64,000 bases of DNA, from assembly GCF_028389875.1 (NCBI RefSeq), contig NC_084668.1, positions 18,061,993 through 18,125,992 on the forward strand, written 5' to 3'. The stretch is from Rhea pennata. Lineage: Eukaryota > Chordata > Aves > Rheiformes > Rheidae. Both the position numbers and the translations under genes were made by a program. Each line of letters opens with the position of its first letter. Position 1 is the first letter of the stretch. Shown one piece after another: positions 6,101 to 31,082 of the stretch. The notes below the pieces were generated by a model. The model saw nothing but the letters and a program-made list of their open reading frames with translations. It was not told the DNA's origin and did not search any database.

Positions 6101-8212
6101 TCGACACCCCCGGCGTCGCCCGCCACGCAGGAGCCCCCCGCCACCACCCCGTCCTCCAAGGAGCCCCCTGCTCCCCGCGGGGCCCCGGGGGCCAAGGACA
6201 GCACGGCACTGCGGCAGGGCGTCCCCCAGAAGCCGTACACCTTTCTGGACGAGAAGGCGAGGTGAGGAGGAGGACGGACGGCGCCCGTCTGCCGCGGAGT
6301 GCCCCCGCTCGCCGGGAGCCCCGGCTCTGGGGGCTCCACCACCACGCGCCCCACGCTCGGCGGGGCTGAGCGCTGCGCTGTGCCGCAGGGGCCGGTTCGG
6401 GGTGATTCGGCTGTGCAGGGAGAACGCCACGGGGAGGCACTTCATGGCCAAGATCGTGCCCTACGAGGCGGAGAGGAAGCAGAGCGTGCTGCAGGAGTAC
6501 GAGATCCTCAAGGCGCTGCACCACGAGCGCATCATGGCCTTGCACGAGGCGTACATCACCCCCCGCTACCTGGTGCTCATCTGCGAGAACTGCGCGGGCA
6601 AGGAGCTCCTCTACAGCATCGTGGACAGGTACGGGAGGGCGCGGGGCCGCCGGGCGCGGGGCCGCCCGCTGACGGACGCTGCCTGCCCGCAGGTTTCGCT
6701 ACTCGGAGGACGACGTGGTGAGCTACGTGCTGCAGCTCCTGCAGGGCCTCGAGTACCTACACAGCCGCCGCGTCGTGCACCTCGACATCAAGCCGGACAA
6801 CGTCGTCGTCTCGGGCATGAATGCCCTCAAGATCATCGACTTCGGCAGCGCCCAGACCTACAACCCCCTCGTGCTGCGGCAGCTGGGGCGGCGCGTGGGC
6901 ACCCTGGAGTACATGTGTGAGTGGGGCACCGGGAGCGTGCATGCGATGGGGATGGAGCAGGGTGGGGATGGGACAGGATGGGGGTGGGAAGTTGGGAAGT
7001 CTCTGGGATGCTCGGGGTGTCCATGGTGGGGGGTCTTTAGGGTTGCTGGATTCTGTGGGAGGGTTGTGGTTTCGGTGGGACAGATGGTGTCCTTGGAGGT
7101 GGTGGGCTCTGTTGGGGCATTTGGGTGTCAGTTGGTGGTGATGAGGGTGTGAAGGTGGGGTGCCAGGGATACCGGGACCCTCCTACCTGTGTGACAGGCC
7201 TTCTCCCTTGCTCCCAGCGCCGGAAGTGGTGAAAGGCGACCCGGTGGGCTCCGCAGCGGATGTCTGGGGTGTCGGTGTCCTCACCTACATCATGTAAGAT
7301 GAGGAGATGGGGGGCGAGCACCCTAGTGCTCAGCGCCATGGGGAACCCCAGCCTTGGCGGTGGGCTGTGGGGAATGCCATAGCCCTTCGGGCCCTTCCTA
7401 CCCACGCATGGGGGTTGAGACACCCTGGGGAGCTATAGCTGACCAGGGGGAGGTGGGTGCTGGGTCCCAGGTGCCCACAGTGCTGTGGCGTGCAGGGGCA
7501 GAGCTGGGTGGGACAGGACCCCAGCACCCAGGCTGTGCCACTCTTCCACTCACCCAGGCTCAGCGGGCGGTCGCCGTTCTTTGAACTGGACCCAATCGAG
7601 ACGGAGAATCGCATCCTGGCAGGGCGCTTTGATGCCTTTAAGCTCTACCCCAACGTCTCGCAGAGTGCTGCCCTCTTCATCCGCAAGGTCCTCTCCATTC
7701 ATCCCTGGTGAGTGCCCAGCCCAGCTGGCATGCGTGCAGCTCCCTGTCCCACAGAGACCTCTCTGGGGTCATCAGTGGGACCCCGGGATCCATCTTTGTC
7801 CTGGGATCCACCGGGTACCAGGAACCGGGGATCCAACCCTGCTCTCGGAGACACCTGGGATCTCGAGGTCCTTAGGACCCCAGAACCCCTCCCTGCCCTG
7901 GAGAGAGCGGGGACTCACCGAGTCTCAGAGGGAAGAGGGGTAGCTGGGTTTGGGACAGTCTGGGGGGCTGACGCGCTGACGCGGCGCGGCCCGTGCCGCC
8001 GCAGGAGCCGCCCCACGGTGAAGGACTGCTTCGCCAACGCCTGGCTCCAGGACGCCTACCTGATGAAGCTGCGCCGCCAGACCCTCACCTTCACCACCAA
8101 CCGCCTCAAGGAGTTCCTGGTGGAGCACCAGCGGCGCCGCGGCGAGGCCGTCACCAAGCACAAGGTCTTACTGCGCTCCTACCAGGGCGGCCAGCCGCCG
8201 GGGCCACAGTAG
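164..8212 (+). CDS. SPEG: SPEG, 3' half (14 exons; 5' end outside window)
   Basis: Striated muscle preferentially expressed protein kinase, an obscurin/MLCK-family giant that acts at muscle triads and the sarcomere. Coding exons read with intact GT-AG borders and phases: 164-206, 295-363, 560-2819, 2994-3146, 3475-3591, 3704-3871, 4462-4584, 5195-5359, 5559-6261, 6389-6628, 6693-6916, 7218-7293, 7558-7707, 8005-8212 (stop TAG 8210-8212). The first two exons give the C-lobe end of kinase 1 (EHPWFK) and the conserved [13 protein letters not shown] tail. The 2.26-kb exon is a Ser/Pro/Arg-rich linker with repeated SRS/RSE and 'SSSF' phosphosite-like patches. Then come one Ig domain, one FN3 domain, a Pro-rich linker (exon 5559-6261) and kinase 2, ending in the SPEG-specific tail with [16 protein letters not shown] and HKVLLRSY. 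The family call rests on these signature stretches, which I recognise from mammalian SPEG. The gene runs head to tail into GMPPA, as in human 2q35. Everything N-terminal of kinase 1 lies upstream of the window. Confidence 0.96.
3475..5359 (+). other. SPEG: SPEG Ig domain and FN3 domain exons
   Basis: Two exons (3475-3591, 3704-3871) encode an I-set Ig fold: [17 protein letters not shown] opens it, the first core Cys lies in TLCCLPAG, the Trp in IVWMK, and the second Cys in [14 protein letters not shown]. The next two exons (4462-4584, 5195-5359) encode an FN3 fold: [21 protein letters not shown], then [26 protein letters not shown]. All four exons start and end in phase 1, the usual phase for exchangeable Ig and FN3 modules, so single-module skipping would keep the frame. 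Confidence 0.92.
6389..8212 (+). other. SPEG: SPEG kinase domain 2
   Basis: Complete C-terminal kinase domain over five exons. Visible catalytic features: glycine loop [11 protein letters not shown]-anchoring Lys in HFMAKIVPY, helix-C Glu in LQEYEIL, catalytic loop HLDIKPDN (Asp present), DFG in IIDFGSAQ, and C-lobe [12 protein letters not shown]. The APE motif reads SPE (GTLEYM|SPEVVKG), split by the intron at 6917-7217. All residues needed for phosphotransfer are present, so an active kinase is likely. In mammals this domain is reported to phosphorylate SERCA2a and junctophilin 2. Confidence 0.9.
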
Positions 8213-9991: not shown

Positions 9992-12900
9992 ATGCTGAAG
10001 GCGGTGATCCTCATCGGGGGCCCCCAGAAGGGTAAGGGGGCGCCGGGGCGCCGCGCGCCCGCCGCCGCCGCGCCCCGCCGACCCGCCGCTCCTCCGCAGG
10101 CACCCGCTTCCGGCCGCTGTCCTTCGAGGTGCCCAAGCCGCTCTTCCCGGTGGCCGGCGTGCCCATGGTGCAGCACCACATCGAGGCCTGCGCCAAGGTA
10201 GGCCGGGGGCCCGGGCCGCGGCGGCGGCGGCGGCGGGGCGGCCGGGGGCCGCGGCACTGCCCGCCCCTCTCCGCTCTCTCGCCAGGTGCCCGGCATGAAG
10301 GAGATCCTGCTCATGGGCTTCTACCAGCCCCACGAGGCCCTCAGCCGCTTCCTGGTGTCGGCGCAGCAGGAGTTCAAGATCCCCATCAGGTGGGCAGCCG
10401 CCCTGCCGCCCTCCGCGGCTCCGTCGGCGCCGAGGAGCCCGTGCCGCCCGGCCCGGCTCCGTCCCTCGCCTGACTTCCCCGGGAGGGAGCCCGCCGGGCA
10501 GGCCCCTCTCGTCCCACCGTCGATGGGCATCCTGGCCCCTGTTGCCAGCACTGACAGCCCTCAAGGCCACCCTCCGTCTGCTGTCCCGGGCCCTGCTCTG
10601 GCTGGATGCTGCTCTGCTCTCGCAGGGCACCAAGCTGCTGCTTCTGCCCACTTCACATGTGCCAGAGCCCCCGCTACCCGTCTCCTTGCCTGACAGGATC
10701 ATGTCTGCCCGGCCCTTTCAGCAACTCCCAGCCCTGCCTGCAGGCAGTGCTACCATATGCTGGCTTCCCTAAGCAATCACTCTTCCGCACTTGGCTTGCA
10801 GGTATCTCCAGGAGTACGCGGCACTGGGCACGGGTGGCGGCATCTATCACTTTCGGGACCAGATCCTGTCGGGTGGTCCTGAGGCCTTCTTTGTCCTCAA
10901 CGCAGATGTGTGCTCCGAGTTCCCCTTGCAGGAGATGCTGGACTTCCGGCAGCAGCACGGCGACGTGCACAGCTTTGTCATTCTGGGCACCACGGTGAGC
11001 AGCGGTGCTGGGCCCTGCTGGCAGTGGTGGGGAGTAGAGGAGCAGCATTGCTCTGGAACATGCTTGTCTAGAAGGCAAAGGCTCCTGCGGCAGATGGGTG
11101 CGAGCTCTGGGTCCCATCTGTCCCGTATCCACGTGCCTGCTGCTCTGCTGCTCTTGATACATCCCATCTTCACAGGCCAACAGGACACAGGCTCTGAACT
11201 ATGGCTGCATTGTGGCTAACACGGACACGCACGAGGTACTGGAGGGGTTAGGAGAGCTGGGCATGGTGCAGGCCGTGGTGCTGCGCTGCTTGTGTGGGTG
11301 CCTGTTCCCAGTGTGCTGTGATGGGGTAGAGGGTGTGGTGCTGGGCACGGGGCCAGCGCGGGGCCTGTGCCCTGGGACTCACGTTCCTCCCTTGCCTCCA
11401 GGTCCTGCACTATGTGGAGAAGCCCAGCACGTTTGTCAGTGAGATTATTAACTGTGGTATCTACCTGTTCACACCTGCCATCTTCCAGCACATCGGTGAT
11501 GTCTTCCAGAGAAACCAGCAGGAGCTAGTGCTGTGAGTGCCCCTGTCTGCCCTGTGTCCCTCCCACCCCACTGCTTCCCAGGGCTGCAGCAGCACACTCA
11601 TCTTCCATTCTTTCTCTATCTTCTCTCCTCTTCTGCCATCACTCACTTGTTTCCTGATTCTGCACCAGCTGTCCTTACCTTGGGTAAGTCTCCCTCTGTC
11701 TGTGCTGGCTGCTCTCAGCGCTGGGTTGTGCTAGCAATAACACATGCTTTCCTCCCTGCTCCAGGCTGCTCCGCGAGACTGTTGTTTGTGCATCTCCCCT
11801 GCTGTGCTGCTCCCCTTCTGGCTACCACAGCAGCCCCAGTCTGAGGCCAGGTTGGGGCTCCCCATCTCTGCCTTCCCTTCCCCCCCCCCCCCCCCCCCAT
11901 CCGCACACAGCTCAGGACAAAGGGGTGAGCAAGCCTTTCACTGGGGAATGCTCTGCTTCCCCTTCCAGCCCTCTCGGCTGGCCTGTCATCTGGCATCTCT
12001 GCCACCACTTCAGTGCAAATCCAGCTGTGCAGGGCTTACTGTGGCCATATCTGGAATCAGGGACAGGATCTGTAGCACATGCACCTTGGGCTGGGTGGTG
12101 CCCTCACACTGCAGTTTCTGGCTCAGAGCGTGTTTCAGCTCGCAAGGTCTTGTCTCTCTGCTGTTCTGGGCCTCAGCAGGGCTGGGCAGGCAGGGCTGGG
12201 CAGGCAGGCCTGGCCTGACAGCTGGGGCTGTCCCTCCTGTGGGGAGAGATGCATGGCTAGGAAGGAGTCCAGGAAGAACCCTATAGCCAAGGAGCCCCCC
12301 ACATCTGGAAGGGGTAGCAGTTGGGCCCCCTGGCCGAGGCACTGCTGGAGTGGGTGTCTAAAGGGTGTTTTGCTTGCAGAGAGGACAGCTCTAACGGCTG
12401 GCAGCGTGCAGAAGTGATCCGGCTGGAGCAGGATGTTTTCACGGCACTGGCTGGGAGTGGCAAACTCTATGTCTACAAAACTGATGGCTTCTGGAGCCAG
12501 ATCAAATCAGCGGGGTAAGGCCTGGAGTTGGGTTGGTTTAGCAGGAGTGCTGAGTGGTCCGCAGTGGAGCTGGGAGAGGAGGGTAACTAGGCAGGGCTTT
12601 CAGGCTGGGTGGGGGTGGCAATGCTAAGTTGAGACCCTTCTCTGTCCTCTCAGTGCCAGAAGAGCAATAGCAATTTCTTGCTTTTTCCTTCTCCAGCTCT
12701 GCCATCTATGCCAGCCGCCTTTACCTGAACCAGTACAGTCAGTGCCACCCAGAGAGGCTGGCCCAGAACAAACCGGGAGGCCCTATCATCCGAGGTATCC
12801 CTCTGACACCTTGAGTGGCCTTGGGTACTGCCTGGGAGCTGCCCAATGCAGGACAGGGCAGAGCGGAGTGGGGAGGAAGTAGGACCCATGGCAGGCCCTC

Positions 12901-13675
12901 CAGTCTGAGCGCGCGCTGCTCCTGCGAGCTGCTTCCCCTCATGCAGCTGTTTTGCATTGCAGGGAATGTGTACATCCACCCGACGGCCTCTATCAACAGC
13001 ACTGCAGTGGTGAGCGCAGGCCTGGGGGACCCTGCAGTCGGGTCACCTTGGGGTGATGTTACCTAGTGCTCAGTGTCTCCTGCTGTGGCAGGCTGAGCCC
13101 CCAAGCTCATCACATCTCTCTTTTCTCACAGCTGGGCCCCAACGTCTCTATTGGAAAGGGAGTGACGGTGGGAGCTGGTGTACGCGTGCGTGAGTCCATT
13201 GTCCTGCATGGGGCCTCACTGCACGTAAGTATGGTTGTCCTTACCCTGGCCTCTTGCCGTGGGGCAGCATCCCTCACCCGCCACTGCTCTCTCCTCCTCC
13301 TAGGATCACACCTGCGTTCTCAATACCATCGTGGGCTGGGACAGTACCATTGGGCGCTGGGCCCGGGTGGAGGGAACACCCAGTGACCCCAACCCCAACG
13401 ACCCCTATGCTAAGATTGACAGCGAGACCCTTTTCCGGGATGGACGGCTCACACCCTCCATCACAATTCTGGGTATGGCCTAGGTCCTTCTGCCTGCACC
13501 CAGCAGCTCTGGCCCTGCAGCGTAAGGCAGGGCTTTTTCCCCTCTTGCTGACCCCATTCATCCTCTCCCTGCAGGTTGCAGCGTCACCATCCCTGCTGAG
13601 GTTGTCATCCTCAATTCCATCGTCCTGCCCCACAAGGAGCTGAGCCGCAGCTACAAGAATCAGATTATCCTGTGA
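9992..13675 (+). CDS. GMPPA: GMPPA, mannose-1-phosphate guanylyltransferase alpha (regulatory subunit)
   Basis: Cytosolic partner and allosteric inhibitor of GMPPB in making GDP-mannose for glycosylation. Twelve exons, all in phase: 9992-10031, 10100-10197, 10286-10389, 10802-10994, 11176-11235, 11402-11532, 12380-12514, 12697-12794, 12963-13009, 13132-13224, 13304-13472, 13575-13675. Total 422 codons plus TGA, against about 420 in human. N-terminal nucleotidyltransferase fold (about 1-245): [15 protein letters not shown], then [16 protein letters not shown], the LNADVC metal-binding Asp region, and VLHYVEKP. C-terminal left-handed beta-helix (about 280-422) with hexapeptide turns such as [14 protein letters not shown] and [15 protein letters not shown]. 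The insertion [16 protein letters not shown]... (about 356-389) is the C-loop that separates GMPPA from GMPPB. The start ATG sits at the island edge and gives the expected [10 protein letters not shown]. Nothing is broken. Exons contrast with GC-rich flanks but remain conserved. Confidence 0.98.
11880..11898 (+). repeat. 19-base poly-C tract in GMPPA intron 6
   Basis: Uninterrupted C run following a CT-rich stretch. Length may be polymorphic or mis-called. It lies far from the splice sites of the 11533-12379 intron. Confidence 0.7.
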
Positions 13676-16312: not shown

Positions 16313-19300
16313 CTACACCAGGGAAGGGAAGAACCGGCCCACTCTCTTCGGGGCAGGCTCCTGCCTGCGTGGGGAGAGGAGATGAGTCAGGGGTGCGCGG
16401 CACGCCGCCCGCCCACCCCTACCCCCCGGCTCTCCGGAGCACTCACGGCGGCTGGGGGGCTGTGCCCACGCAGCTCCGCAGCGCGCTGGGGAGGCAGCAG
16501 GTCCCAGCGGGGCTCAGCTGGCCGGAGTTGGGCTCGGCGGAGGCAACGGGGCAGAAGAGCTGCTCTGCAGGACGGGGGCCTGGGCAGGGCACGACGTGAG
16601 CCGTCACAGACCAGCCCCCTTTGGGCACCCAGGGCCCCTCAGCACCCGCTGCACGAGGGCGGCCGCCCCCCGGGGGCGCTCCTCTCGCACGCCCGGGCGC
16701 CTCACCGTGTTCGCTCTGCGGGGCCGGGGTGCTGGCCGGCACCAGCACCAGGTTCTCCTGCTCCGTCCCCACGAAGCGTCCCCAGAAGTCAGGCGGCAGC
16801 GAGAGGAGCCGGGCCACCACCTGGGCAGGGAGGGAGGGAGGATGCGGAGGTTTGGCAGCGCCTAGGGCGCAGCCCGCACCCCGGGGCCGGGCTCACCTTG
16901 CACTGCCGCGGCGTGTCCTCGATGATGGCGAGCGGCGTGGGGTTGGCCGAGCCGTGCCCCACCAGCGTGGGCCCGAACACGCGCGACAGGTTCGGCACGT
17001 CCATCCTGCAGTCGGGGCTGCGGGACACCCTGCGGGGAGGCGGGGGAGGGGGGGGGGCTGGGCAGCGGTGCGACCCCCTCGCCCTCAGCGCTGCCCCCCT
17101 GCTAGGGGGCACGGGGCCGGGGGGGGCTGGCTCGGACGGCAGCCGGGGGGCAGAGGGACCCTCACCGTTGCAGGTGCAGCATGAGGAAGGCCAGGGTGTC
17201 CCTGTTGGCGGGCGGCAGCTGGCTGACGAGGTGGCGCAGGGCCGCGCCGCAGGCGGCCTCGTCGGGGACGTCTGCGGCGGCACCGGGAGGGAAGGGGGCG
17301 TCATGGGCGGGCGGGCGGGGGCCGGGCGCCCCCCGCCTCCCCGCGCGGCCCCTCACCGGCGGCCTGCAGGAAGGCCGGGCGCAGGCGGAGGGTGAGCAGG
17401 GGCTCGCGGAGGCCACGCAGGAAGTCCTTGAGCACCCCGCAGAGCACGTGGACGTCGGCCACGGCGCCCGGCGCCTCCCCGGCGCGCAGCAGCCTCCGCT
17501 TCCACTCCCGCACCAGCTGCTCGGCGCCCGGCACGCGGTACAGCCCCGTCTGCGGGCCGAGAGGAGGGGGGGCTCAGCGCCGCCGCGCCGCGCGGCCCCC
17601 CGCCGCCGCCGACGCCGCCCCCGCCGCCGCCCCTACCTCGGCCAGGCCTCGCGCCTCCACCTCGGCCACGCAGCGCACCAGCAGCGCGGGCACCCGCGGC
17701 GGCGCGGCCGGCGCCAGGTCGGCCAGCACGCCCTGCGGACGACAAGGTGGGGGGGGGGCAGAGGGCGGCCCGGGCCCCCGCGCGCCCCCCGGCCCGGCCC
17801 GGCCCGCCGCCCCCCGCGCCGCGCTCACCTCGCGGGGCCGGCCGCGCCGGCGGGGCCGGGCCGCGCAGGGCCCGGGGCACCGCTGGCGGCACCGGGCGTG
17901 CACCAGCCACCGGCACCGGCGGCACTTGCAGGCGGCCGTGCCGAAGCGGAGGCGGGAGCCGCAGGCGGCGCACGGCTCCGGGCGGATGACCTGCCGGCAA
18001 CGCCGTGGGGGGGGGGGTCAGCGCCCCGGCACGCTGCCCCACGCTGCGCCCCCCCCTCCCCACGGGGCCACGCACCGTTTTGGAGCCGAACTGGTGCTGG
18101 AGCAGCGGGAGGCTGTGGGGAGGGGAGGGCAAGGGGGCTGCCTGCCCCACACCGCCCTCCTCCTCCTCCTCCTGCTCCGCACGGCTCTCCGGCCCTGCGG
18201 CCCGGCAGCCCCGATCCTCGCCGGCGCCCCACGCCGTGGTCAGCTCTGCCAGGAGATGAGACGCTGGAGGGGTCCCAAAATGCAAACCGACCCTCGGGGG
18301 AGGGGGGAGAACCCGGGGGGCAGGAGGGGGCTTCCTACCTCCCAGAATGGGGGCGGCGGGGGTCCCCGCAGCGCCCCGCCATGGGCGAGGATCTTCCGGG
18401 GGACCCGTGCCCTCCCGCACGCCCGGGCACCCCTCGGTGGGCACGCCGAGCCCCCCGGCCCCCCCGGGACCTGCGTGCGCAGAGGGGCGGCCTCCTCCCC
18501 GGCGAGAGCGGCGCGGCAGCACCGGGGGGCTGCCGGCGGCACCCGGCGCCTCGGCCGGAGCGGGCACGACGCTGGCCTGCAGAAGTGGGGGGAGAAGGAG
18601 GGTGAGGAAGCTGTGCCCCACAGCGCTGCAGCCTGTCCCCACATGCTCTGTGCAGCCCCCCACCCCACGGCGTCCTGCGCAGCCGGCGATGCCGCCTCCG
18701 CGGGGGACGCGCCGGTACCCAGAGTGGCACCCGCAAGCCCATGGGGTTGAAGGGTGCTGCGCTGCCCCCTGCTCCCCCCCACCACCCTGCCCCAGGCGCG
18801 CTGTGGGGCCAGGTCCCTACTCACAGCATTGGGGGGCACCACGGACGGACGGAGCCGCTTCGCTGCCAGCACGGGGCCGATCTGAGGGGCCAGGGACGTG
18901 CGCTGGGGACAGAGCGGATGGGGCGAGGGGTAGGCAGGGCTGCCCTCCACACCTCGGCCCCACAGGGCGCCCCGGTCTCGCTGCCCCTGCCAGCCACCGC
19001 GGGGGACCGAGGCGCCCTCCCCATGCCTGTGCCGGGCCGGGCCTGCAATGCAGAGGGGCGAGCGGAGCGGGGCGCGGGATGCCTGCGCGCGGGGATGAAT
19101 TATTGAGGAGCCCGGCCGGGCCACGGCGCGGGGTAATGGAGTTTCTATTGATCGCGGGAGCTTTGCTGAGACACGACGCTCCCAGCTCAGCATCAATAAA
19201 TTAAACCCCCTGCCAGGCTCTTTGCAGCCTCCCGTGCAGGGTCAGAGAAATATTCGGGTGCTGCATGGGCCCGGCCCTTGCACCGTAGGCTTGGGCTGCC

Positions 19301-20825
19301 CCCGGGCACCGTGGAGCCTGTACCGGGTGAAGGATCCCACGGCCATGGGGTGGGAGAGCAGAGCACACCTGGGGCCCCTCCCAGGACCTGCTCATCCGTG
19401 TTGGGGGCAGACCTCATCCCGGCGCTGGCCTCAGCGTGCGCAGGCCACCACATCCCAGCATTTCCCTCGTACCTGCCTCTCCTGAGTTCTGCGCTTCAGG
19501 GTCTTCACCACCGTCACATCAACATCCTGAAAGGCAGGAGAGAGCCTGGGGGCTGGCTGGGCAGCATGGGATACCCCCAGCATCCAGGCTCAGCAGCACC
19601 TGGGGGCATCCAGCCTCCTGCCTGCCCCGAGCGAAGGCAAAGCAGCTGCCCCACTGCAAGAGGGGGTCAAAACCGCTCCCTCGCTGCCAGGCTGCTGTTG
19701 GGATAGGAGTCGGGGGAAGAAGCCAGCCCTGGGACAAGCAGCGCGTCCTGCCTTACCACATCGTCCTCGGTGCGGTCATAGCTGATGTCCGAGTGGGACA
19801 GCAGGGAGTGGCACGACTCATCCACCACCGACGACCTGCTGGGCAAACCAGGGGGTCAGCACAGCCAGGGAATGCCCCCATCCCAGCCAGGGCATCTATT
19901 TGCATATATATTCCTACAAGCCCAAGGCCTGCGAGGACGAACACGTCCACAAGCCCAACCACCATTGCAGGACCAGCCCTGGCCCTATCCCTCCCTTGAA
20001 GCCCAGCAGCAGCAGGGAGGAGTCACAGCTGAGCCCAGGGCTGCTTAAGGGGCAGCAGCAAGGGTCACTGCCAGGATGCTCCTTCCCAAAGGGGCTGTAG
20101 CCCTATTGCACAGGCGATTGGTGCCCAGACAGACCCACTCACCTCCTGCCCGGTACCAGGGTGCCCCCGAGGCGCCGGCCCGCCAGGGCGCAGAGGACGG
20201 TGCGCTGCTCGCCTGTCAGGGCACTGCTGCCTGACGGCTCCTGCATCAGGAACTCAAATATCAGCTGAAGTTTGCGCTCCTGCGAGCAAAAACAGGCAGC
20301 ATCAAGGCCCATGGGACGGGCTCCCCGGTGTCACTGCACCCAGCCCCACAGCGTGCCCCCACAGCCTCTGCAGACCCCACAGACCTGCTTCTCCAGCTCA
20401 GCCTCTGCCCGGTGCCGTTTCTTCATCTCCACCTCCACCTGGTTGCGGGCGTGCTTGAGCTTCACCTCCAGCGCTGCCCGCTCGGCCTCGGCACGGGCCA
20501 GCTGCTCCCGGGCCCTGCGCCCATCCTGCTCCAAGCGGCAGCATTTCTGGCGCGTCACCTCAAAGCACCGGGCAATCTGGATGTAGTCTGGGTGGGACAC
20601 AAGTGGGTGGCCAGTCAGGACAGGGCTCCTGGTCCCGAGCTCCCCCAGTCCCATGCGCCTGGGAGCTGGTAGCTGAGCCGGGCACCTCCAGAGCAGGATC
20701 CCACAGGGTGCCCTTGCCCCGAGGGGCTGCACACACCCACCTTCCTCGACGCCACCGCTCAGCTCCAGCAGCCGCAGCACCCGCTCCAGCTGCGCCAGGA
20801 GGTGCCCGTAGCGCTGCCGCATCAT
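16313..20825 (-). CDS. RACGAP1-like: RACGAP1-like Rho GTPase-activating protein (MgcRacGAP/CYK-4 family)
   Basis: RACGAP1 pairs with the kinesin KIF23 as centralspindlin and acts on Rho GTPases in cytokinesis. Sixteen exons on the minus strand, all GT-AG and in phase: 20825-20741, 20587-20385, 20279-20143, 19835-19757, 19526-19473, 18902-18825, 18576-18339, 18263-18076, 17990-17829, 17732-17637, 17549-17357, 17271-17166, 17029-16897, 16820-16706, 16579-16447, 16364-16313. About 683 residues (human RACGAP1 632). Coiled coil about 5-115 with the signature LEVKLKHARNQVEVEMKKR. C1 finger 348-396 with perfect spacing: H348, C361, C364, C377, C380, H385, C388, C396. RhoGAP about 409-600 with arginine finger R445 in TGLYRVPG and K481 in VLKDFLRGLREPLL. 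C-terminus VGRFFPSLV matches the family's GNFFxSP end. An in-frame stop 24-26 bases before ATG 20825 and an adjacent cag|g suggest a separate 5' non-coding exon. Exons 7-8 (the linker before C1, with a poly-Glu tract) are GC-driven and poorly conserved, so their inner borders are the least certain. Confidence 0.9.
19080..19262. promoter_or_regulatory. AT-rich island in RACGAP1-like intron 5
   Basis: Sharp drop in GC inside an otherwise GC-rich intron, with TGAATTATTGAG, TAATGGAG, ATTGATCG and ATCAATAAATTAAACC. No coding signal. Its composition matches the other candidate conserved elements further right; regulation is inferred only. Confidence 0.35.
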
Positions 20826-21170
20826 CCTGCCGCGGAGAGATGGGGCACATCAGACGGTCCCCCCGCTCCAGCCCCCCACCAAGCCCGGGGAGACCCCCCC
20901 CCGCCCCCGCGCAGCTCCCGGCGGCGGCGGCGCGCCCATCCCCGGCCGCCGGGGCCCGGCCGCCGCCGCGCACCCCCGGGACGGCGCCGGCTCCGGGGCC
21001 GCGGGCCCTCCCGGCCGGCCTATGTGGGCCGGGGGCCGGGGTGGAGCCCGGCCCGGCTCCGCCTCCCCCCACCGCCCCGGCGGAGCCCTGCGCCCGCCCC
21101 CGCAGCGCCCCCCGGCTCCCCGGGCCCGGCCTGCCCGCGGCTGCCGCGCTGCGGGGCGGCAGCCTTGGGT
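20826..21170 (-). promoter_or_regulatory. CpG-island promoter of the RACGAP1-like gene
   Basis: Very CpG-dense block (runs of GGCGGCGGC, CCGCCGCGC) directly upstream of the minus-strand start exon. It should hold the transcription start and the non-coding first exon. No TATA box seen. Confidence 0.6.
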
Positions 21171-21585
21171 GCGGGGTGCCCCAGGGTGCAGGCAGCAGTG
21201 TGGGGTGCGGGGGTGCAGGGCAGGAGGGCTGGATTTGGGGTGCCTGGGCAGCCTGGGGTGCAGGGATGCAGGATGAGAGCGTTGAGTGAGGGGTGCTGTA
21301 GTGTGCTGGGTGCAGGAGTGCAGGGTGCAGGACAGGGTTTGGAGGGCAGAAGTCCTGCATGCTCAGAAGTCCTGGACACCCTGGGGTGCAGGAGTGTGGG
21401 ACGAGAGTGCTGGGTGTGGGGCCCTGCAAGGTGCTGCATGCAGGAGTGCAGGGTGCAGGGTGCAGGGATGCAGGACAAGAAAGCTGGGTGTAGGGTGCCG
21501 TAGGGTGCAGGACCGCTGGGTGCAGGGACGCAGGACAGCAATGCTGGGCACCTTAGGGGTGCTGGGTGCAGCAGTGCATGGCGGG
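21170..21585. repeat. Minisatellite built on 'gggtgcagg'
   Basis: About 415 bases of imperfect tandem copies of words such as ggtgcaggagtgcaggg, ggatgcaggac and gctgggtgcagg. It begins where the RACGAP1-like CpG island stops. Unit length is irregular (roughly 9-40), so it is an old, internally reshuffled array. Confidence 0.75.
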
Positions 21586-21589
21586 GCTG

Positions 21590-22970
21590 CCGGTGGGGTA
21601 CTCCCGCTTCCCCCAGCCCCCGGTTTCCCAGGAGAGGTACTGCTGCTGGCGTGGGTGCCGCGGGGAGAGCGGAGACAGACGCCCTTGGGCGGGAGCCGGA
21701 GGAGCCCATGTCCTTGGGGCTGAGCACAGTGTTGGCTGCCTTGCTGCGACAGCGCGTGCTGGCCCGCGGCGCGGCTCTCCGTGGCCCGCTGTCCCCCCAG
21801 ATCGCTGTGCCCGCGCATGCTAAGCGGCTGGCTGCGTGTGGCGACAACGGGTCCCGCTGTCTGTCTGGGATGGTCGGGACACCCTGCGCCCACTGCCTGA
21901 CGCACCCCGCTGCTGCGCGGCATCCGCGGCTGCTTGGGGCAGAAGGACCCCTGGGGACTGGGGGGCTGTAAAGCCCACAGACCCTCTGTGGCCTGGCAAG
22001 GGACCCCGAGCCCCCTTGAGCCTCGGGGCTCCTGGCCGGGCCGTGTCCTGCAGATGGAGCCATCTCCCTGCCTCAAAGCCCAGTGCAGCCCTGCTTCCTC
22101 CAGCGCGGGCCCCGGGCTGCGAGGAACCTCGGCCCCCAGCACCCTGCCAAGGGGCACCCTGGCACAGCCCTGCCGCACCCGGAGCAGCCCTGCTGGCGCA
22201 GCCCAGCCCCACGGCTGCCCTGCGGCGGGGCCCCCGCAGCCATGGGGTCCTGGGGGCGTGGGGCGGTCTGCAAGGGGAGGTGGGGACCACGGTGAGCGGT
22301 AGTGCACCAACCCTCCCCTGTGCCTGTCCCAGCCTGCTGCAAATACCTGGAATAGCAGCTGTGCTGGCGGCAGGGCTGGGCGCGCCAAGGGGGCCCCAGC
22401 ATGCAGGCACGGGCATGACATGCACGCATGAACGCAGCCCTCACCCGCTTCATGCATCCCTGGCCGTCTCTGGGCCCCTCTAATGGAGAAATGGGATTTT
22501 TGCACCCTGCAGGCATGCAGAAATGGGATCCCCACCTGCACCCAGGAGCGTGCTGGAGGAGGCTGCACATCAGACAGGCTCCCCTCGCCGTGTTGGTCCC
22601 ACACAGGCCCCAAGTGCTCAGACACGAGGGATGTAGAGGGTAGGGGTCTACCCATGGGGTAGACAGGGACAAATCCCAGGGACCCGCCTGAGAGACTTGG
22701 TGAGGCAACGGGTCAGTCGGGGCAGCCTGGGCTTGTCCTGGGCTGTAGGGTCGCAGCAGGATGGGGCCTGAGCCCCCCTCATCAGGGTCGCTGTGGGGTG
22801 TGTGGTGCTGGGGCTGCAGCCCGGGGGGTGCTGCATGCCTCGGGTGCCGGGGGTCACCCCCCGCAGAGCTGTGCCAGGGGGCAGAGCCCAGCGAGGGGCT
22901 GTGATGGGCAGGCAGCACCCCGGTGGTGCGGCACCCGGGGCTGAGCCCGCTGCGCTGGGCCGGCACGTGG
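21590..22970. other. GC-rich intergenic stretch, no gene seen
   Basis: Open frames here are all short or shadow-like, with no recognisable domain, RNA gene or repeat. Confidence 0.5.
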
Positions 22971-22974
22971 GGTG

Positions 22975-23065
22975 TTTCTCGGAGAAGCTCCTTCCTCCCA
23001 AGGTTGAATATGAGTCAGGTTTTGGAGCGACTTTAATTACTGCTGGATCGATAGGCTCGGCACGG
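22975..23065. promoter_or_regulatory. Candidate conserved element 1
   Basis: AT-richer island with TATGAGTCAG (AP-1-like), TTTAATTACTG (homeodomain) and ATCGATAGG in GC-rich surroundings. Non-coding. Confidence 0.35.
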
Positions 23066-23384
23066 CCAAGCAAAATCCAATCGCAGCCCCAGGGGCCTGC
23101 CTGCTCAGCCCGCTGCCGCGTGGCTGGGGGGACACGCGCTGCCCGTGCCGCCGCCTCCCCGCGGCTCGCCCCGCGCCCCCTCCGCAGCCAGGCCCCCCTG
23201 CCGCCGCTGCCGCCCGGGGCACGTCCCGGGGCCGCCCAGCCCACCAGCGGGCAGGGCGGGCGGGAGCTCCCTGCAGCCTGCTGCTCTGATGCCCCCGGAT
23301 GGGTGGGGGGCATTTGCCGCCCACCCTGCGCACCCCCTCTTCCCAGTCGGCCCTCCCCGGAGCTCGAGCCACCCCAGCTTGGCC

Positions 23385-23715
23385 AGGCGCTGCATAAGTA
23401 GCTGTTTGTGCCTCCGCTCGGCCCCTGCATGGGAAATAATATCGGCTGATGGAACATAATGCCCTGCTTCACATGTTCAATTTTATCATTTTCCGAGGCA
23501 GGCAATCTTCGTTTAAAGCTGAATGGGCTGGGGAATGTTAATGAAGCGCCGGCGCTGCTCTGCACCGCGCTTTATCTCTTCGAGAATAATTTGGGTGAGC
23601 TCGGAAATAGAGTTCCCAGTCCCAATTCAAGCGGCGGCAGCACCGCGTGCCGATAAAAGTGTAATTCCTGGCCAGCGCGTGGCCCTGAATACATGACAAC
23701 TTAACCCTTCGGGCC
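23385..23715. promoter_or_regulatory. Candidate conserved element 2
   Basis: 330-base AT-rich island flanked by over 65% GC. Contains GGAAATAATATCGG, CAATTTTATCATT, GTTTAAAGC, GTTAATGA, TTTATCTCTT and CGATAAAAG (GATA words), and AATAATTTGGG. The edges are abrupt, as in deeply conserved enhancers. No coding frame is conserved. Confidence 0.45.
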
Positions 23716-24419
23716 CCGCGGGGACCGCGCTGCCCAAGAGCTGCCTGCCGGCGGGCCCGGCAGCAGCCTCCGCGCAGGTCTGTCCTCCCTGCCCGCCTCC
23801 AGCTGGACCCCCCACCCCAGCCCAGCGCCGGCAAGGCTGGCCGCAGGAGCCGAGGGGAGGAGACGGAAGAGGGCAGGCGTGGAGCCTGAGGAGATCGGTC
23901 TCCCAGGCCAGGCAGGACCCCCAGGCCGCTCTCCAGCCGTGCCAGACTGTGGAGATGCCCAGGGACAGGGACTCTGCTGAGACACTGGCGTCCTGGGTGC
24001 TAGGATGCCCTGGGTGCTGAGATGCCCCCGGTGCTCGCATGAGGAGGGATGTCCCCAAAGCCCTGGAGGCCGTGGTGGGCTCGCAGCCATGACGGCTGGG
24101 TGCTGTCTGCCTTTCAAGCCCACGTCAGAGCTCGAGAGTGAGGAAGAGTGAGGAGCAAGGTCCTGTGTGCAGCACCCCTGGGCTCCGGCTGCAGCGGCCA
24201 GCTGTGCTGGGGCAGCGCAGCACCCTTTGCCCTGACGAGCCGCCCCACGTCCTGGGCCATCCCACCCCAAAGATGCTAAGAGAAGGACACCTTGCCCAGC
24301 AGGCAGTTGCAGCAGCAGGGCAGTGCAGCACCTCAGATGCCAGCCCGCCGTGGGTGCCAGGCCCCTCGGGTGGGGCAGCGAGTGGGTGCTGTGGCCAACC
24401 CCTTCCCCGGAGGACAAGT

Positions 24420-24600
24420 GGGGTAGGCACGTTAATCAGGGCTGTGAGAGCCGGGATTAATGTGCACTCCAAGGCTCTCCAGTCCCAGCTGTGATCCAGC
24501 CCTCTGCTCTCAGCCAGAGCCGCCTCCACGCGCTGAATTATCAGCCTGAGTAATTAAGTGGAGAGCTTTGTTTTAATGCAGACATCTGATGCCTTCGCAC
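24420..24600. promoter_or_regulatory. Candidate conserved element 3
   Basis: Contains GTTAATCAG, GGATTA (24454-24459, OTX/bicoid type), TGAATTATCAG and TAATTA (24551-24556). Non-coding. Confidence 0.4.
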
Positions 24601-24604
24601 CGCA

Positions 24605-25335
24605 GAGCACAACAACTGTCGCGGGTGTTTATGCTCCGTGCAGCACATCTGGCTCACGGGGAGAAAGCCCATCGCTGCTGCTGTGCGAGATTAAAGGGAA
24701 GGTGGCACGGGCACAGGGAGAGGAGGGAGGGCTCGCAGGCAGCAGCATGGCAGGACAGGGTCCCCCGCTGCCTCGCTGCCTCCTTAGCCAATCTGGCAGG
24801 AGGTCATGGCCCGGGGCTGCGAGCACCCGTCGTGGCGGGGTGGCCAAACTCTGCGCAGAGCCAGACGGGGAGCCGGAGGGTCGCGCAGGCGCTGTGCAGA
24901 CGTGGACAGGGCGCTGGTGCTGCCTCCAGGCCACCACAAGCCTGCGTGCGCCTGTGCGTGTGGCAAAGCGGGGGCATGCATGTGTGAGCAGGAGTCAGTG
25001 TGCTCACGCATGTGCAAGTCCTGAGCCACAGCTACGAGCTCGTGTGCGTGCTGGGTCCAGCTGATGCTTTCCAGAAAGGGAGAAACGCAGGGCATGGACC
25101 TCTTTCCTGCCCACTGCGTCCTGCCACCCCAAAGGACTTGCCCTGCGCCAGGAGAGTTTTGGTAGCCGCTTGCTGTGCTGCGAGCCAGCGCAGACAGGAC
25201 GGGACGGGCTGCAGCCCTGCGGCAGGCAGGGACTGGGGAGCAGCCTTGCTGCCTTGCACAGGGGCTCTCCTGCAGAGCTGGGCTGCAGCAAGAGGTGCTC
25301 CCCAGGCTTTCGCCTTGGTTTCACTGTTGTCCATC
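24605..25335. other. Intergenic stretch, no gene seen
   Basis: GC-rich sequence with a GT/CA-alternating segment near 24940-25015 (tgcgtgcgcctgtgcgtgtg). Nothing codes. Confidence 0.5.
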
Positions 25336-25339
25336 CTTG

Positions 25340-26660
25340 CACAGGTTTTGAAACGCATACTGTTTTTATTAAAATCTCCTCGGTTTTATGCTAAGCCACA
25401 ACAAGAGCATTCTTTGACCCCTGTCTGCCCGTCACCCTGCACGTACCTGCACACTGGCACCCTCCTTCCTCTCCTCCCATATCTCTCTAGACCCAGGTTT
25501 CCCCGGGCCCCGGAGCATCCATCTCCATCCCCACCACTTCACCACTGCCCACTGACCTCCCAACAGGACTCACCTGCCCAGCGAACCACCCGCGCACCTT
25601 GCTCCTGAGAGCACAAGGCTTGAGAACGTGCTGTGTGATGAAGGATAATTACAGGCTGTGAGATAAATGGAAATAGGACAAAATAAAACATAGCCTTATC
25701 AGAGGAAGATGGTGCCTGCTTCACCTGATACCTTCTGCTGATAAGAGAGCTGGTTTTCGGAAGAAGACGAATGCAGACCCCAGCTGTCTGGGCCTGGGAA
25801 GAACAGAGATGGTGCCACACAGGAAATTATTACTTTGCACAAATTAAGGGATTATCATGAGCACAAGGAGGTGGTAAGAGCCTGGTGAGGCAAGAAGATT
25901 GGCTGCAGGGAAAGAGGAGATACTAGGAAGGAGAGAAACTATTTCAGCCACCACTGGGGGTGTGCCTCATTTCATAGCTTCATCTTTCATCCCAAAAGTG
26001 GGGGCACCGGGAAAAATCTGCTGATGCCACAAGGATATGAATCATTCTCAGTTTGGGAAAGGCCTGAAAAAGGGTGAGATCCAAGAATGCATAAGCCTGG
26101 GGGTGGATGGAGGAGCCTGGTGTCAGCTATCATCATCCTGGACAGGACAGGTACTGCCCTGCCCACCATGGCCACCACCCTCGTCTGCAGGATCCTAGCA
26201 GACTCGGTCCCGGCTTCCCCAGCTCGGCCTGTAGCTCCAAGCACAGGGAGCCAGGAACCCTAATTAGCATCTGAGCGGATTTTGATGAAGACGAGTAGAG
26301 GCTGCCTACACACAGGCAGCTTTGCTAAGAATCTCCTGGACACCCAAAATGCGGTTGCCCCAGGGCATGGAGGAAGCAGGTCACCGGACAAGTTACCAGA
26401 AAAACTTACAGTATGACCAGACTGTGCAAAAATGGATAAGTTTCCTGTACAGCAAAATGCCCTAAAGCTCCACATGTGAGACGGTCTGGAAGCAGGGCTG
26501 TGCCACGATGCCGTGCGCCCTGGCAGCAATTGGATGGGAAGCTTGGCTGGAAATTAAGCTCACAGGTGTGTTTCTTGGGCCTTTTCTCTCTACTCAATCC
26601 CTGAACCATTGATGCTTTGCTAATGGCATCCATTTGGGTTGCCTGAATGGTCTCACAGAT
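25340..26660. other. Unassigned AT-moderate block, possibly old repeats
   Basis: 1.3 kb with lower GC than its flanks and no coding signal. It begins with TTTTTATTAAAATC. The 25,600-26,200 part has the even, purine-rich texture of decayed transposon sequence, but I cannot name a family. Confidence 0.35.
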
Positions 26661-26664
26661 ATTT

Positions 26665-27925
26665 AGTGCTTTACTAACTGAGCAGCTCAGCCAGGGAGCT
26701 CATGAGTTGCACCGGACAGCAGCTGGCTGGTGTTCAGGCGAGGAGCAGCGGCCTGCGCTGAGGCTGTGCCCCATCACAGCCTCCCCGAGCACACCGCCCC
26801 GACACCCCCAGCATCCACCGCAAGCCGTGCACGGCACTGCCCGTCTTCCCGGCTGGGCACCGGCGCAAGCTGTGCCTTCGTGAGCTCACTCTCGGCCGGC
26901 TTGGCCCACTGCTGCTCTCTTGCAGAAGCGGGTGACCTGCTCTGAGCTCCAGGAGAGCGTGGAGGGGCTGCCGGGGCTGGCCGGGGCGGCGGGAGCAACT
27001 CCTCAGGGAAGGTGCAGACCCAGGCCTGGAGAGAAACGTTTAACTGTAATCCCTGCCGGTGGGAGCGTCCAGGAAACCGTGCTGGGAGAAAGCGTTTTGG
27101 GCAGAAACGCTCCCTGGGCTTTCCAGGGAGCTCTGCGCTCTGCGGCCTGCTCCCCTGCTGAGAAAGATGTTTCTAAATTTGGCCTGGGATCTCCGACCCT
27201 GCGCTGATCTGGCGGAGGAGCGAGTGCCGTCGGCGTTGAGTAAAGCTGCCTTCCCGAGCCGCTGCGCTGCCTGGCTGCCCCCGGCCGGGGCAGTGCCCCG
27301 CGGCGGGGTCTGCTCCCCCGGGGCCGCCGGCGGGACCTCGCGCTGGGCACAGGGACCGGGACCGGTAAGAGCCTTTGGCAAAATCTAGTGGCAGAAACAA
27401 AGCTGGAGAAGCTCAAATGAGAGAGGCAAAATGACCCAGCCCTCAGCCGGCCGGGGGCGATTTGAGATGGAGTGGGTAACTCTAGCCGGAGCAGCAGGGT
27501 TCGCGCAGCCACCCTGGGCAAGCAGCCTGGTTTATTGCCTGCGCAGAGCCGAAATTGCCGCCCATGCTGGGCAGAGGCGCAGGACCAAATCCCTCACGTG
27601 GAGACGCTCGTGGCAGAGGATGAGAAAAGCCGTGCAAGGGAGACGCATGAGAACAGCTTGAGACATCCCCGGCAGTCGCGCCCCGCCGGGCGCGACGGCT
27701 GCCCGCACAAGACGCGGTTCCCCAGGCGGGGCCCAAAACACGGGCGACACGTCCCCGAACCGCGGGCGCTGCGCAGGGGCTGCAGGTGCGGAGGGGAGCC
27801 GGGTGCTCCCGGCGCAGACCCGCGGCGCTGCCCTCCGCGGGAGCCGCGGCGCGGGAAGGGGGCTGCGCCGCGGGCGCCGGGCGCGCTCCTGCCGGGCCAC
27901 GGCACCCGGCCCGAACGAAGGACGG
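26665..27925. other. CpG-rich block upstream of the LINE relic
   Basis: Two CpG-dense cores at about 27200-27370 and 27660-27920. No exon is recognisable. It could be a distal promoter or regulatory island for the ASIC gene 2.5 kb downstream; this is inference. Confidence 0.3.
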
Positions 27926-27929
27926 CCAA

Positions 27930-28290
27930 CAGGGATTAATTCCACCAGACACTATATCAAACGCTTTAATAAAAGCCAGATATATCACACCTCTTGTCTC
28001 CTCTCCATCGATTCATTTAGCAATTTTACCCAAAAAAGGCAATCAAGTCGGACTTGGCAGATTTATTCTGTGTGAGCTTCGAGCACATCTTTATTGCTCC
28101 CTGTTCCCCTGCCCTCAAGGTCTTTAGAAGCATTTTCCTCTTAATATTTGTTCTATTATTTTACTAGGGATGAAGCTCTGTTGATGGGCAGTAATTGCCT
28201 GGACTGCCCTGCCTTCTTCTGATAAAGATTGGTACCTTACTGGCTCCTGCCTCCCCCAGCCCTACTCTCCTGTCCTTCCTCAGCAATATT
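27930..28290 (-). mobile_element. Decayed CR1-superfamily (CR1/L3-type) LINE, reverse transcriptase fragment
   Basis: Read on the minus strand, broken frames show reverse transcriptase block words in the right order. First KVPIFIRRRQGSPGNYCP (about 28245-28190), the counterpart of the family's VPIFKKG...PGNYRP. Then, after further stops, GVIYLAFIKAFDIVSGG (about 27990-27940), the counterpart of VxYLDFxKAFDxVxH. Stop codons and frame changes show it is dead. The stretch is AT-rich and well preserved for its apparent age, which could mean later regulatory use. Confidence 0.7.
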
Positions 28291-28794
28291 ATTGACCAGG
28301 AAACTTCATTAACGATCCCCCTAATGACTGCAGCCACGCCAGCCCAGCCCACGACGCTAACCTTTCCTGGGCTCTCCCTCGGCGTCGGTTTGCAGGAGGA
28401 GACGTTGCAGGATGCTCCCCAGCATCTCCGGGGCCGTTTGGACGCTGAAGCTGCTTTTAAATCCCTGCTGACTCCCTGCCTGCCCCCCCCCCATGAAGGG
28501 ATACGACCTCCCGTGGGCTCTCACCCCCCCCCCCCGGCCTTGCCCCCATTTCCCCGCCCTCCCCACGGCCCAGTGACCAGGCAGGGCAGGGGAGGCGCCA
28601 GCCCGTCAGTCCCCGGTGGCGGGTGGGTTTCGGGGGGTGCCGGGAGCACAGGAAGCCGGCGCGGCCCTCGGGGCTGCCGGGCAGCCCGACACTGCTCCTC
28701 CGGCTGACCCTCGGCTCCGCCGCCCCCGATCCCAGCTCCCCGAGCCTTGCAAGCCAGGCTGGCACCGAGCCAAGCATGATGCCCGGATTAGGCA

Positions 28795-28880
28795 CTGCCT
28801 CCTGCAAATGAGCTGTTAATTATCATAATCTGGTAATTGAGAAAAATCTAATTATGCAAAGCTAATGGATTTAGACCCAC
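28795..28880. promoter_or_regulatory. Candidate conserved element 4 (POU/homeodomain cluster)
   Basis: Dense AT island with TAATTA at 28817-28822 and 28849-28854, TAATTG at 28834-28839, and ATGCAAA at 28854-28860 overlapping the second TAATTA, resembling a joined homeodomain-POU site. It lies 1.5 kb upstream of the ASIC start. Confidence 0.45.
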
Positions 28881-29369
28881 GCTGGGGAGCACAGGCCATG
28901 GGAGCACAGCTGGGCAGGGCCAGCATCACGGGCCCGTGGCCACAGACACGGTGGTCCCCCAGCAGTGCCTTTCGCTCTGCACCAGGACCTTGCTGGGCAC
29001 GAGGCCAGGTCTAAGCATCCCCAGGAGAGAGCGCAGCCCTCTCGCCTCCCTCCAGCTCCACTGAGCCTGGGCACCACCAGCCTGACCCCCCCGGCCACCT
29101 TCTTGCTCTGTTTTTCCCATCTCCCCTTCCCGGGAGCCCCTGCACCCAGCATGAGAAGCAGGGCTGGAGGACGCATGCGCGCCCCCCCCCTTGGGCGTGC
29201 TCCCAGATCCTGACCTGCCTCCCCGGCCCTGCTGCCCTGGCAGCGCCCCGGCCCCAGCAGGCACAGCTCCGACCCGAGCGTTCGCTCTGCGCTCCCTCTG
29301 CCAGGGTAAGAGCGCTGCTGGACCTGGCCAGGCGGAGGCCGCGTGCACGGCAAGCCTGGAAGGGAAAGG

Positions 29370-29502
29370 CAATATCTTTTATTAGACCAACTGGGACCGT
29401 TCGGAAAGGGAGATCAGCTTTTGAGCACGCAGATGCTTCTCCCAGTGCTCACAGGCAGCTCTGTTTTCATCAACTATATCCCCGGCCTCATAAAAGATAT
29501 TG
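29370..29502. mobile_element. Foldback (inverted-terminal) short interspersed element
   Basis: Left end 29370-29385 CAATATCTTTTATTAG and right end 29487-29502 CTCATAAAAGATATTG are inverted repeats matching 15 of 16 positions, enclosing about 100 bases. It resembles old non-autonomous foldback elements scattered in amniotes; I cannot name the family with certainty. Confidence 0.55.
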
Positions 29503-29504
29503 GC

Positions 29505-30392
29505 TCTTCCTGCGCGCCGGGGGGTGAGCGGTGCCAGGCTGTGCCAACCCCAGCCCCGTGCCAGAGCTCCCAGCCTCGTGGTGCCGGCCACACCGGGGAG
29601 CCTGGCAGCCCGCGCGCAGCAGCAGCAGCCGAGGGCTGGCCTGGGCTGAGCTCCCGCGGCGCAGCCCGTGCAGCACCCCTGCCAGCCCTCGCTGCCTGCC
29701 GCGGGCCCCTCGGCCCGCTGCTCTTTTGGGGAGCCCAGAGGAGGGGGTCAGCGCCGAAGCTGCAGGAGCTGTGACAAGAGTGACTCTCGACGCCTCGGCT
29801 CCTCGGCCAGCCTCAGGTCTCGTAGCTGTGCTCCCGTGAGGCTGGTGCTGGGGCTCCTGCGCAGCCGCGGGTGCCCACGACCGACTGCACGAACAGCTGC
29901 TGCTGCCGGGAGCGTATCTGCCCGAGCACCTCTCCGAGGCCTGGGAGCTCCTCCCAGCGCCGGCAGCGGGACTCGAGGAGCTTGCCCAGCTCTCCTTCCC
30001 CAGGGAGCCCGCACTAAGTGCCGCGAGATGGTTGAGGCAAGCAGGGCTAATTGCCTGCACCCCCAGGAGACAGGAGCTGAGAGCACCCTGCGGGTGGGTT
30101 TTAGCCTCTGGCTCGAGCTCCTGCAGGATGTGGCGATAGCTAAGTACTTCTGTGGTCTCAGCACTTAGCGTGCTTCCCGTTCCCCCGCTCGGGGCGGGAT
30201 GCGGGCAGGAGCACGGATGCTCTGATCCCGCCCTGCGGTGCTCCTCCCTGCACGCAGCCTGCCCGCGTTGCCTGCCCAGCGCTGCACCCGGTCCCAGCTC
30301 CGCGCACCCCCGGAGGCACCCTTGCTGCCCCCCAGGCCTCCTCCGAGGCCGCCGGCTCCCTTGCGAGCAGAGAGGCGGAGTGACGCCGCGAC
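29505..30392 (+). promoter_or_regulatory. 5' flank of the ASIC gene
   Basis: GC-rich sequence upstream of the ASIC start codon. No TATA box near the start. It should contain the 5' UTR and proximal promoter, but the start site cannot be placed from sequence. Confidence 0.35.
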
Positions 30393-31082
30393 ATGTGGCT
30401 CGAGGAGCCTCGGAGGATGCCCCCGCGCCCCTGGGCCACCCCCAGGCCCTCGGCAGCCCACCACCTTGGGAGCTGTCCCGCCGGGCGCCCGGTGCGCGAT
30501 CCCCACCGCGCCGAAACGGCGGCCTCGCCGGCCGTGGATGCCGCCCCCCGGCAGCGTCCCTGCACCCTGGAGGAGTTTGCCAGCCGCTCCACGCTCCACG
30601 GCATCCAGCACATCTTCCGGCACGAGCGCTACAGCGCCCGCAACCTGCTCTGGCTGCTGGCCTTCCTGGGCTCGCTCGCCCTCCTCCTGCACGTCTATAT
30701 CAAGTGTGTGGGCCTGTACTTCCAGTACCCCCACAACACCCAGCTGGAGGAGGAGACCACGCACGGCCTGGCCTTCCCCGCCGTCACGCTCTGCAACCTC
30801 AACCCGGCCCGCTTCTCGCAGCTCTCCAGCCACGACCTGTACTGGATGGGGGAGCTCCTGGGCCTCCTGGACGGGGCCGGCCGCATCCTGGCACCGGACA
30901 ACGTGGACCAGAGCATCCTGGATGCCCTGCAGAGGAAGATGGCCCTGAGCGAGGAGGAGAGGAGTCAGCCGTTCGACTTTGTCGAGTTCCTGGCGCGCGT
31001 GGGCCACCAGCTGGACCTGGGCGAGATGCTCGTCAGCTGCAAGTTCGGGGATGAGGAGTGCAACGGCAGCGACTTCCAGACC
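30393..31082 (+). CDS. Acid-sensing ion channel, first coding exon (rest outside window)
   Basis: ASICs are trimeric proton-gated sodium channels of the DEG/ENaC family in neuronal membranes. The exon codes 230 residues and ends at donor CAGACC|GTGAGT in phase 0, just before the family's (V)FT(R/K)YGKCY block. ATG 30393 is the first in frame; a stop lies 12 bases upstream. Residues 1-58 are a variable cytosolic tail. Then come FASRSTLHG with the gating HG motif (69-70), TM1 about 85-105 (LLWLLAFLGSLALLLHVYIK), FPAVTLCNLN (128-137), DLYWMGELLGLLD, GHQLDLGEMLVSCKF, and an N-glycosylation site NGS (224-226). By position next to SPEG-GMPPA it should be ASIC4. By sequence (CNLN, GELLxLLD, no ASIC4-type N-terminus) it looks closer to ASIC1/ASIC2. 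I am sure of the family, not the paralogue. Exon 2 and TM2 are not found in the window. Confidence 0.9.

Follow-up and report, generated by a model that had tools for sequence, protein, structure and literature searches.

To our knowledge, vertebrates have been regarded as possessing just one RACGAP1 gene. We ask whether this view holds for a locus in the genome of the bird Rhea pennata, where a gene encoding a RACGAP1-like GTPase-activating protein (GAP) is located next to the first exon of an ASIC gene. A preliminary description had proposed this arrangement to be a twin of the RACGAP1-ASIC1 gene pair that originated from whole-genome duplication. The locus is contained in a stretch of 64,000 nucleotides, in the following termed the window, that covers positions 18,061,993 to 18,125,992 of contig NC_084668.1, here abbreviated as C6 to distinguish it from C29, another contig of the same genome. 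From our analysis, we regard it as quite probable that the window harbors a second intact RACGAP1-type gene derived from an early vertebrate duplication of a RACGAP-ASIC block, whose product would most likely be a working GAP of the centralspindlin type.

The RACGAP1-like gene (16313..20825, minus strand) was rebuilt as a spliced model of 16 coding exons, which encodes a protein of 677 residues and is supported by matches to PDB and Pfam entries. Its exons cover positions 20825-20741, 20587-20385, 20279-20143, 19835-19757 and 19526-19473 (exons 1-5), 18902-18825, 18576-18339, 18245-18076, 17990-17829, 17732-17637 and 17549-17357 (exons 6-11) and 17271-17166, 17029-16897, 16820-16706, 16579-16447 and 16364-16313 (exons 12-16). 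All 15 introns in this model, which range in size from 76 to 570 bases, are of the GT-AG type, and the modelled coding sequence of 2034 bases constitutes a single open frame devoid of internal stop codons and frameshifts. Exon borders were assigned from homology and splice consensus in genomic sequence alone, with the linker exons 7 and 8, where the open frame provides the main support, being the least certain. The complete gene of 16 exons that had been proposed initially is recovered in this model, and the ends assigned to the gene pair were exact to the base, with position 16313 marking the end of the stop codon and position 31082 the end of the ASIC exon described below. Since exon 4 is preceded by a NAGNAG acceptor (CAGCAG, 19836-19841), a one-codon splice variant is possible just upstream of the Plk1/Ect2 stretch.

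The encoded protein shares the domain order of RACGAP1, also known as MgcRacGAP or CYK-4, with an N-terminal segment being followed by the Plk1/Ect2 stretch, a C1 domain, a RhoGAP domain and a short tail. Pfam searches identified the RhoGAP domain at residues 417-559 (E=1.4e-35) and the C1 domain at residues 342-391 (E=4.4e-7). Among the 45 distinct sequences matched in the PDB, the top six are GAP fragments of human RACGAP1 (E 1.1e-64 to 2.8e-63), one of them fused to RhoA, and the matches also include the structure of the RACGAP1 C1 domain (4b6d). Chimaerins, in which a C1 domain likewise precedes a RhoGAP domain, are the next-best matches, but they score much weaker (E=2.8e-27 compared to 1.1e-64), and the N-terminal and Ect2 stretches of the window protein match RACGAP1.

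Is this gene the only RACGAP1 of the animal? In a search of the entire genome (1.27 Gb in 180 contigs) with the window protein as query, 17 matches were obtained, of which 11 fall into the window gene, five on C29 and a weak one on C2, which belongs to another RhoGAP. With 66 of the 79 candidates scored, RACGAP-type loci were found at two places, the window and C29. On C29, we have rebuilt a canonical RACGAP1 with 16 coding exons and 631 residues (C29:3946133-3953124, minus strand), which rules out that the window gene is the sole RACGAP1 of this genome. About 6.7 kb away begins ASIC1 (about C29:3959834-3969912, plus strand), with its common exons and two first exons of the 1a and 1b types. 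The canonical gene was thus found beside ASIC1, where the preliminary description had suggested looking for it, in the same divergent arrangement as the pair in the window. The intron phases of both RACGAP genes are the same at 15 of 15 introns and the alignment positions at 12, with the remaining three being displaced by 2, 10 and 5 columns in poorly aligned stretches. Judged from the sequence, a frame that extends over many exons and shares its intron phases with the canonical gene is not a product of chance, and its 15 introns in these phases rule out a retrocopy.

In the window, the partner of the RACGAP1-like gene is an ASIC1a-like first exon (30393..31082, plus strand), which starts at an ATG at either 30393 or 30417, is followed by the donor GTGAGT at 31083, and matches the Pfam family ASC (E=3.6e-26) and ASIC1 and ASIC2 in the PDB. 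The two genes are about 9.6 kb apart and divergently oriented, as had been described. A genome-wide search with the ASC profile returned 43 matches, with those on C6 comprising three of the first-exon type, the first at 30.6 kb of the window, and, downstream, one set of further exons, which together span about 57 kb. The second first exon is ASIC1b-like (C6:18126827-18127276), with its match starting 835 bases past the right end of the window, and a divergent third, rich in arginine and alanine, is found about 20 kb further on (C6:18146616-18149860). Because the second exon begins with MPIEIVCKIKF, like human ASIC4, and would represent the conventional ASIC4 first exon, the gene beside the window RACGAP is most likely ASIC4. 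The exon in the window would then most likely be an additional upstream first exon of the ASIC1a-like type that is predicted to be spliced to the downstream exons, and ASIC4 appears to contain three alternative first exons; mammalian ASIC4 is not known to have an upstream 1a-like first exon.

To the left of the pair, on the plus strand, we found GMPPA (approximately 9992..13672, its exon frames read by eye), with joined exon pieces from about 10.1 to 11.5 kb matching GMPP alpha (7d72, E=1.6e-99). Still further left, 3 of 20 open reading frames scanned in the flank match Pfam I-set or protein kinase domains (3589..7149, plus strand) and probably constitute the 3' part of SPEG, a name assigned by position. 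The RACGAP gene thus stands between GMPPA and ASIC4, and this flank agrees with the order SPEG-GMPPA-ASIC4 of human 2q35, as expected from the proposed location on the 2q35 side.

To evaluate what the protein might do, we inspected its functional residues in an alignment of three sequences, the window gene, RACGAP1 from C29 and human RACGAP1, which covers a single bird genome and where the agreement of the human sequence with PDB entries extends over its GAP (197 residues) and C1 (52 residues) parts. The N-terminal segment (20385..20825, minus strand) is homologous to that of the C29 gene and of human RACGAP1, with 57 of 128 aligned residues, which reach into exon 3, being identical to C29 and 62 to residues 1-130 of the human sequence; by homology, it would correspond to the kinesin-6-binding coiled coil of RACGAP1. 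Further downstream, the protein contains Ser160 (19781..19783, minus strand) in the context D-I-S-Y (residues 158-161) as equivalent of human S157. S157 has been reported to be phosphorylated by Plk1 to become a docking site for Ect2, in a D/E-x-S/T-hydrophobic consensus that is conserved from fly to human (PMC2680336). The equivalent of S170, a Plk1 site, is Thr173 (19512..19514, minus strand) in the context D-V-T-V, whereas the position of S164 is occupied by an aspartate and that of S214 by a serine. The C1 domain (PF00130), encoded by exons 8 and 9 (17862..18096, minus strand), aligns without gaps to its human and C29 counterparts and retains all eight zinc ligands in the spacing H-X12-C-X2-C-X12-C-X2-C-X4-H-X2-C-X7-C (residues 342-390). 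In the RhoGAP domain (PF00620), encoded by exons 10-13 (16954..17690, minus strand), 101 of 189 residues are identical to human residues 349-539, and the arginine finger (R385 in human) is present as Arg439 in the motif TGLYR (17535..17537, minus strand). Both the finger spacing of the C1 domain and the arginine finger are hence as intact as they had initially been described. Two residues after the finger, however, Pro441 (17529..17531, minus strand) replaces human S387. Through this serine, Aurora B has been reported to switch the specificity of the GAP (PMC6784142, PMC3656054), but according to the former report it is not universally conserved, and therefore does not define the whole RACGAP1 family, and its phosphomimetic substitution abolished rather than activated GAP activity (PMC6784142).

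In light of these features, we envisage that the N-terminal segment would pair with a kinesin-6, that Plk1 would phosphorylate Ser160 to allow docking of Ect2, that the C1 domain would keep the protein at the membrane and that the arginine finger would stimulate the hydrolysis of GTP on GTPases of the Rac/Cdc42 type. With a proline in place of the serine in the GAP loop, the Aurora B phospho-switch should be absent. We would thus expect a protein that still joins kinesin-6 and recruits Ect2 while being unswitched at the GAP loop.

The relationship between the two copies bears on the age of the duplication. The window protein is identical to C29 RACGAP1 in 252 of 610 positions (41%) and to human RACGAP1 in 264 of 610 (43%), compared to 535 of 631 (85%) between the latter two. 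Human and C29 RACGAP1 carry different residues in 93 columns without gaps; the window protein agrees with human in 22 of these, with C29 in 10 and with neither in 61, and the excess of 22 to 10 towards human corresponds to a one-sided binomial probability of 0.025. A copy made in the bird lineage should lean towards C29, which the window gene does not, and it does not resemble the recent copy that would have contradicted the preliminary description. In a tree of six ASIC sequences, the second first exon on C6 groups with the 1b exon of C29 with a support of 80, whereas a position of the window exon next to the 1a type has low supports of 47 and 38, although this exon is the best match on C6 of the ASIC1a exon from C29 (51% of 107 residues). 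Wnt genes were matched at 0.4-0.5 Mb from both pairs (C6:17.648-17.682 Mb and C29:4.432-4.433 Mb). The regions 12q13 and 2q35 are paralogous, and ASIC4 is a gene of old standing among vertebrates. Paired ASIC first exons and nearby Wnt genes fit an ancient block duplication and, taking the comparison of the two copies together with the age of ASIC4 and the paralogy of 12q13 and 2q35, the vertebrate genome duplications would be its simplest origin. In this process, one block in which a RACGAP gene was divergently paired with an ASIC gene would have been duplicated early in vertebrates to give rise to the 12q13-like region of ASIC1 and the 2q35-like region of ASIC4. As a separate observation, a single Wnt gene was matched on C29 (C29:4431648-4433029), whereas human 12q13 holds WNT1 and WNT10B; its counterpart may have disappeared from the genome or may not have been assembled.

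Several observations weigh against an early duplicate that still works as a centralspindlin GAP, and those that concern function favor a different fate. Besides S387, the equivalents of S410, S257 and T260 are lost, with the last two residing in a poorly aligned stretch, and the place of the PP2A-B' motif, which has been reported to read LSTIDESGS in RACGAP1 (PMC5586252), contains S-S-V-V-D-E-S-C-H with a serine in first position instead of the leading hydrophobic residue. The protein has also strongly diverged, with identity to human dropping to 23 of 91 residues in the linker, which is longer than in RACGAP1 and GC-rich, and to 25 of 83 at the C-terminus. Together with the presence of a canonical gene for the essential work, these changes would agree with an ancient duplicate that has left cytokinesis to become a tissue-specific Rac/Cdc42 GAP with no role at the midzone. 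We consider this a serious if less probable alternative, as the N-terminal segment and the Ect2-docking context of Ser160 are retained, the S170 position still conforms to D-x-T-hydrophobic and the S214 position is still a serine.

Other observations concern the age of the copy. On domain columns alone, the excess towards human falls to 12:6 and is not significant (P=0.12). The G+C content at third codon positions is 0.90 in the window gene compared to 0.52 in the C29 gene, which explains some of the divergence and also some of the surplus of third-position changes between both genes (0.47, 0.38 and 0.66 differences per site at first, second and third codon positions). The proximity of Wnt genes to both pairs is weak by itself, with 66 Wnt matches spread over 11 contigs, and a comparison of open reading frames (blastp, E up to 1e-4) between about 109 kb of C6 and 80 kb of C29 detected no further genes shared by the immediate flanks. 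Apart from low-complexity matches, it solely yielded exons of the RACGAP and ASIC genes and shadows of these exons in antisense or in other frames, and the wider paralogy therefore rests on the Wnt genes and the human map. Finally, a further very divergent RACGAP copy may reside elsewhere in the genome. Alternatively, the RACGAP1-ASIC1 block could have undergone a later segmental duplication in sauropsids and then changed rapidly, which would agree with the non-significant excess on domain columns, with the ability of fast evolution and high GC content to make a young copy appear old and with a comparison that covers one genome. Such an origin is nevertheless improbable in our view, as the window gene is no nearer to C29 than to human, its neighbor ASIC4 is old in vertebrates, and the block adjoins GMPPA. 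Slightly less probable still is a decaying copy that is open by chance, which its strong, GC-driven divergence and its description from genomic DNA would allow, but which is at odds with 2034 coding bases free of stops and frameshifts, 15 canonical introns, the retention of eight zinc ligands and the arginine finger at 41% overall identity and the predominance of substitutions at third codon positions.

No RNA families were detected in the window at gathering score, and positions 58001-60000 (plus strand) form an extremely C-rich low-complexity tract of 2000 bases without any A (C 1314, G 482, T 204). On the 130-Mb contig C3, matches to the RhoGAP domain are numerous, frequently score the same and form clusters between 15 and 126 Mb; a 1-kb sample of them reads like an ARHGAP20/TAGAP-type GAP, and they look like a large lineage-specific amplification.

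The window gene is distinct from RACGAP1, with which it shares about 42% identity, in that several phosphosites are lost and its neighbors are GMPPA and ASIC4 rather than ASIC1. The open-licence literature, covered mostly through search listings, contained no named second vertebrate RACGAP gene and no report of such an ohnologue, and no second copy is mentioned in the accessible parts of papers on RACGAP1. Two candidate reports were dismissed, as the match in PMC12104089 is a run-together word, and PMC12753894 merely ascribes 'RACGAP1-like functions' to ARHGAP11A, ARHGAP11B and DEPDC1. The setting of racgap1 beside aquaporin genes in coelacanth and king cobra would be the 12q13 side. According to a study of aquaporins, racgap1 adjoins aquaporin genes and faim2 in the former and AQP6 in the latter species (PMC4245216). 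For chicken, the tables of one study list 'RACGAP1' on chromosome 7 and also hold ASIC4, SPEG, OBSL1, DES and TUBA4A (PMC4835825), whereas a newer study places RACGAP1 on chromosome 33 (PMC10286233). Because it shares its chromosome with these genes, the chromosome 7 entry is very likely orthologous to the window gene and would most simply be explained as bearing a wrong name. The window gene is a new member of the RACGAP1 family, which is probably already contained in the chicken annotation but misnamed.

Since 'RACGAP1' is found on chromosome 7 in one paper and on chromosome 33 in another, the name can refer to different loci in chicken data, and avian results on expression, variants and knockouts may have been attributed to a gene that they do not concern. 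It is conceivable, though we hold this only tentatively, that birds and perhaps other non-mammals employ two centralspindlin GAPs, of which the ASIC4-linked one would dock Ect2 and lack the Aurora B switch in its GAP loop, as a cell-type-specific variant of division that was lost in mammals. With this gene, a second centralspindlin GAP would become testable in an easy cell line. As an additional copy that is intact and shares the division motifs of RACGAP1 but lacks the Aurora B serine, it would serve as a natural experiment to tell which of the regulatory inputs are required.

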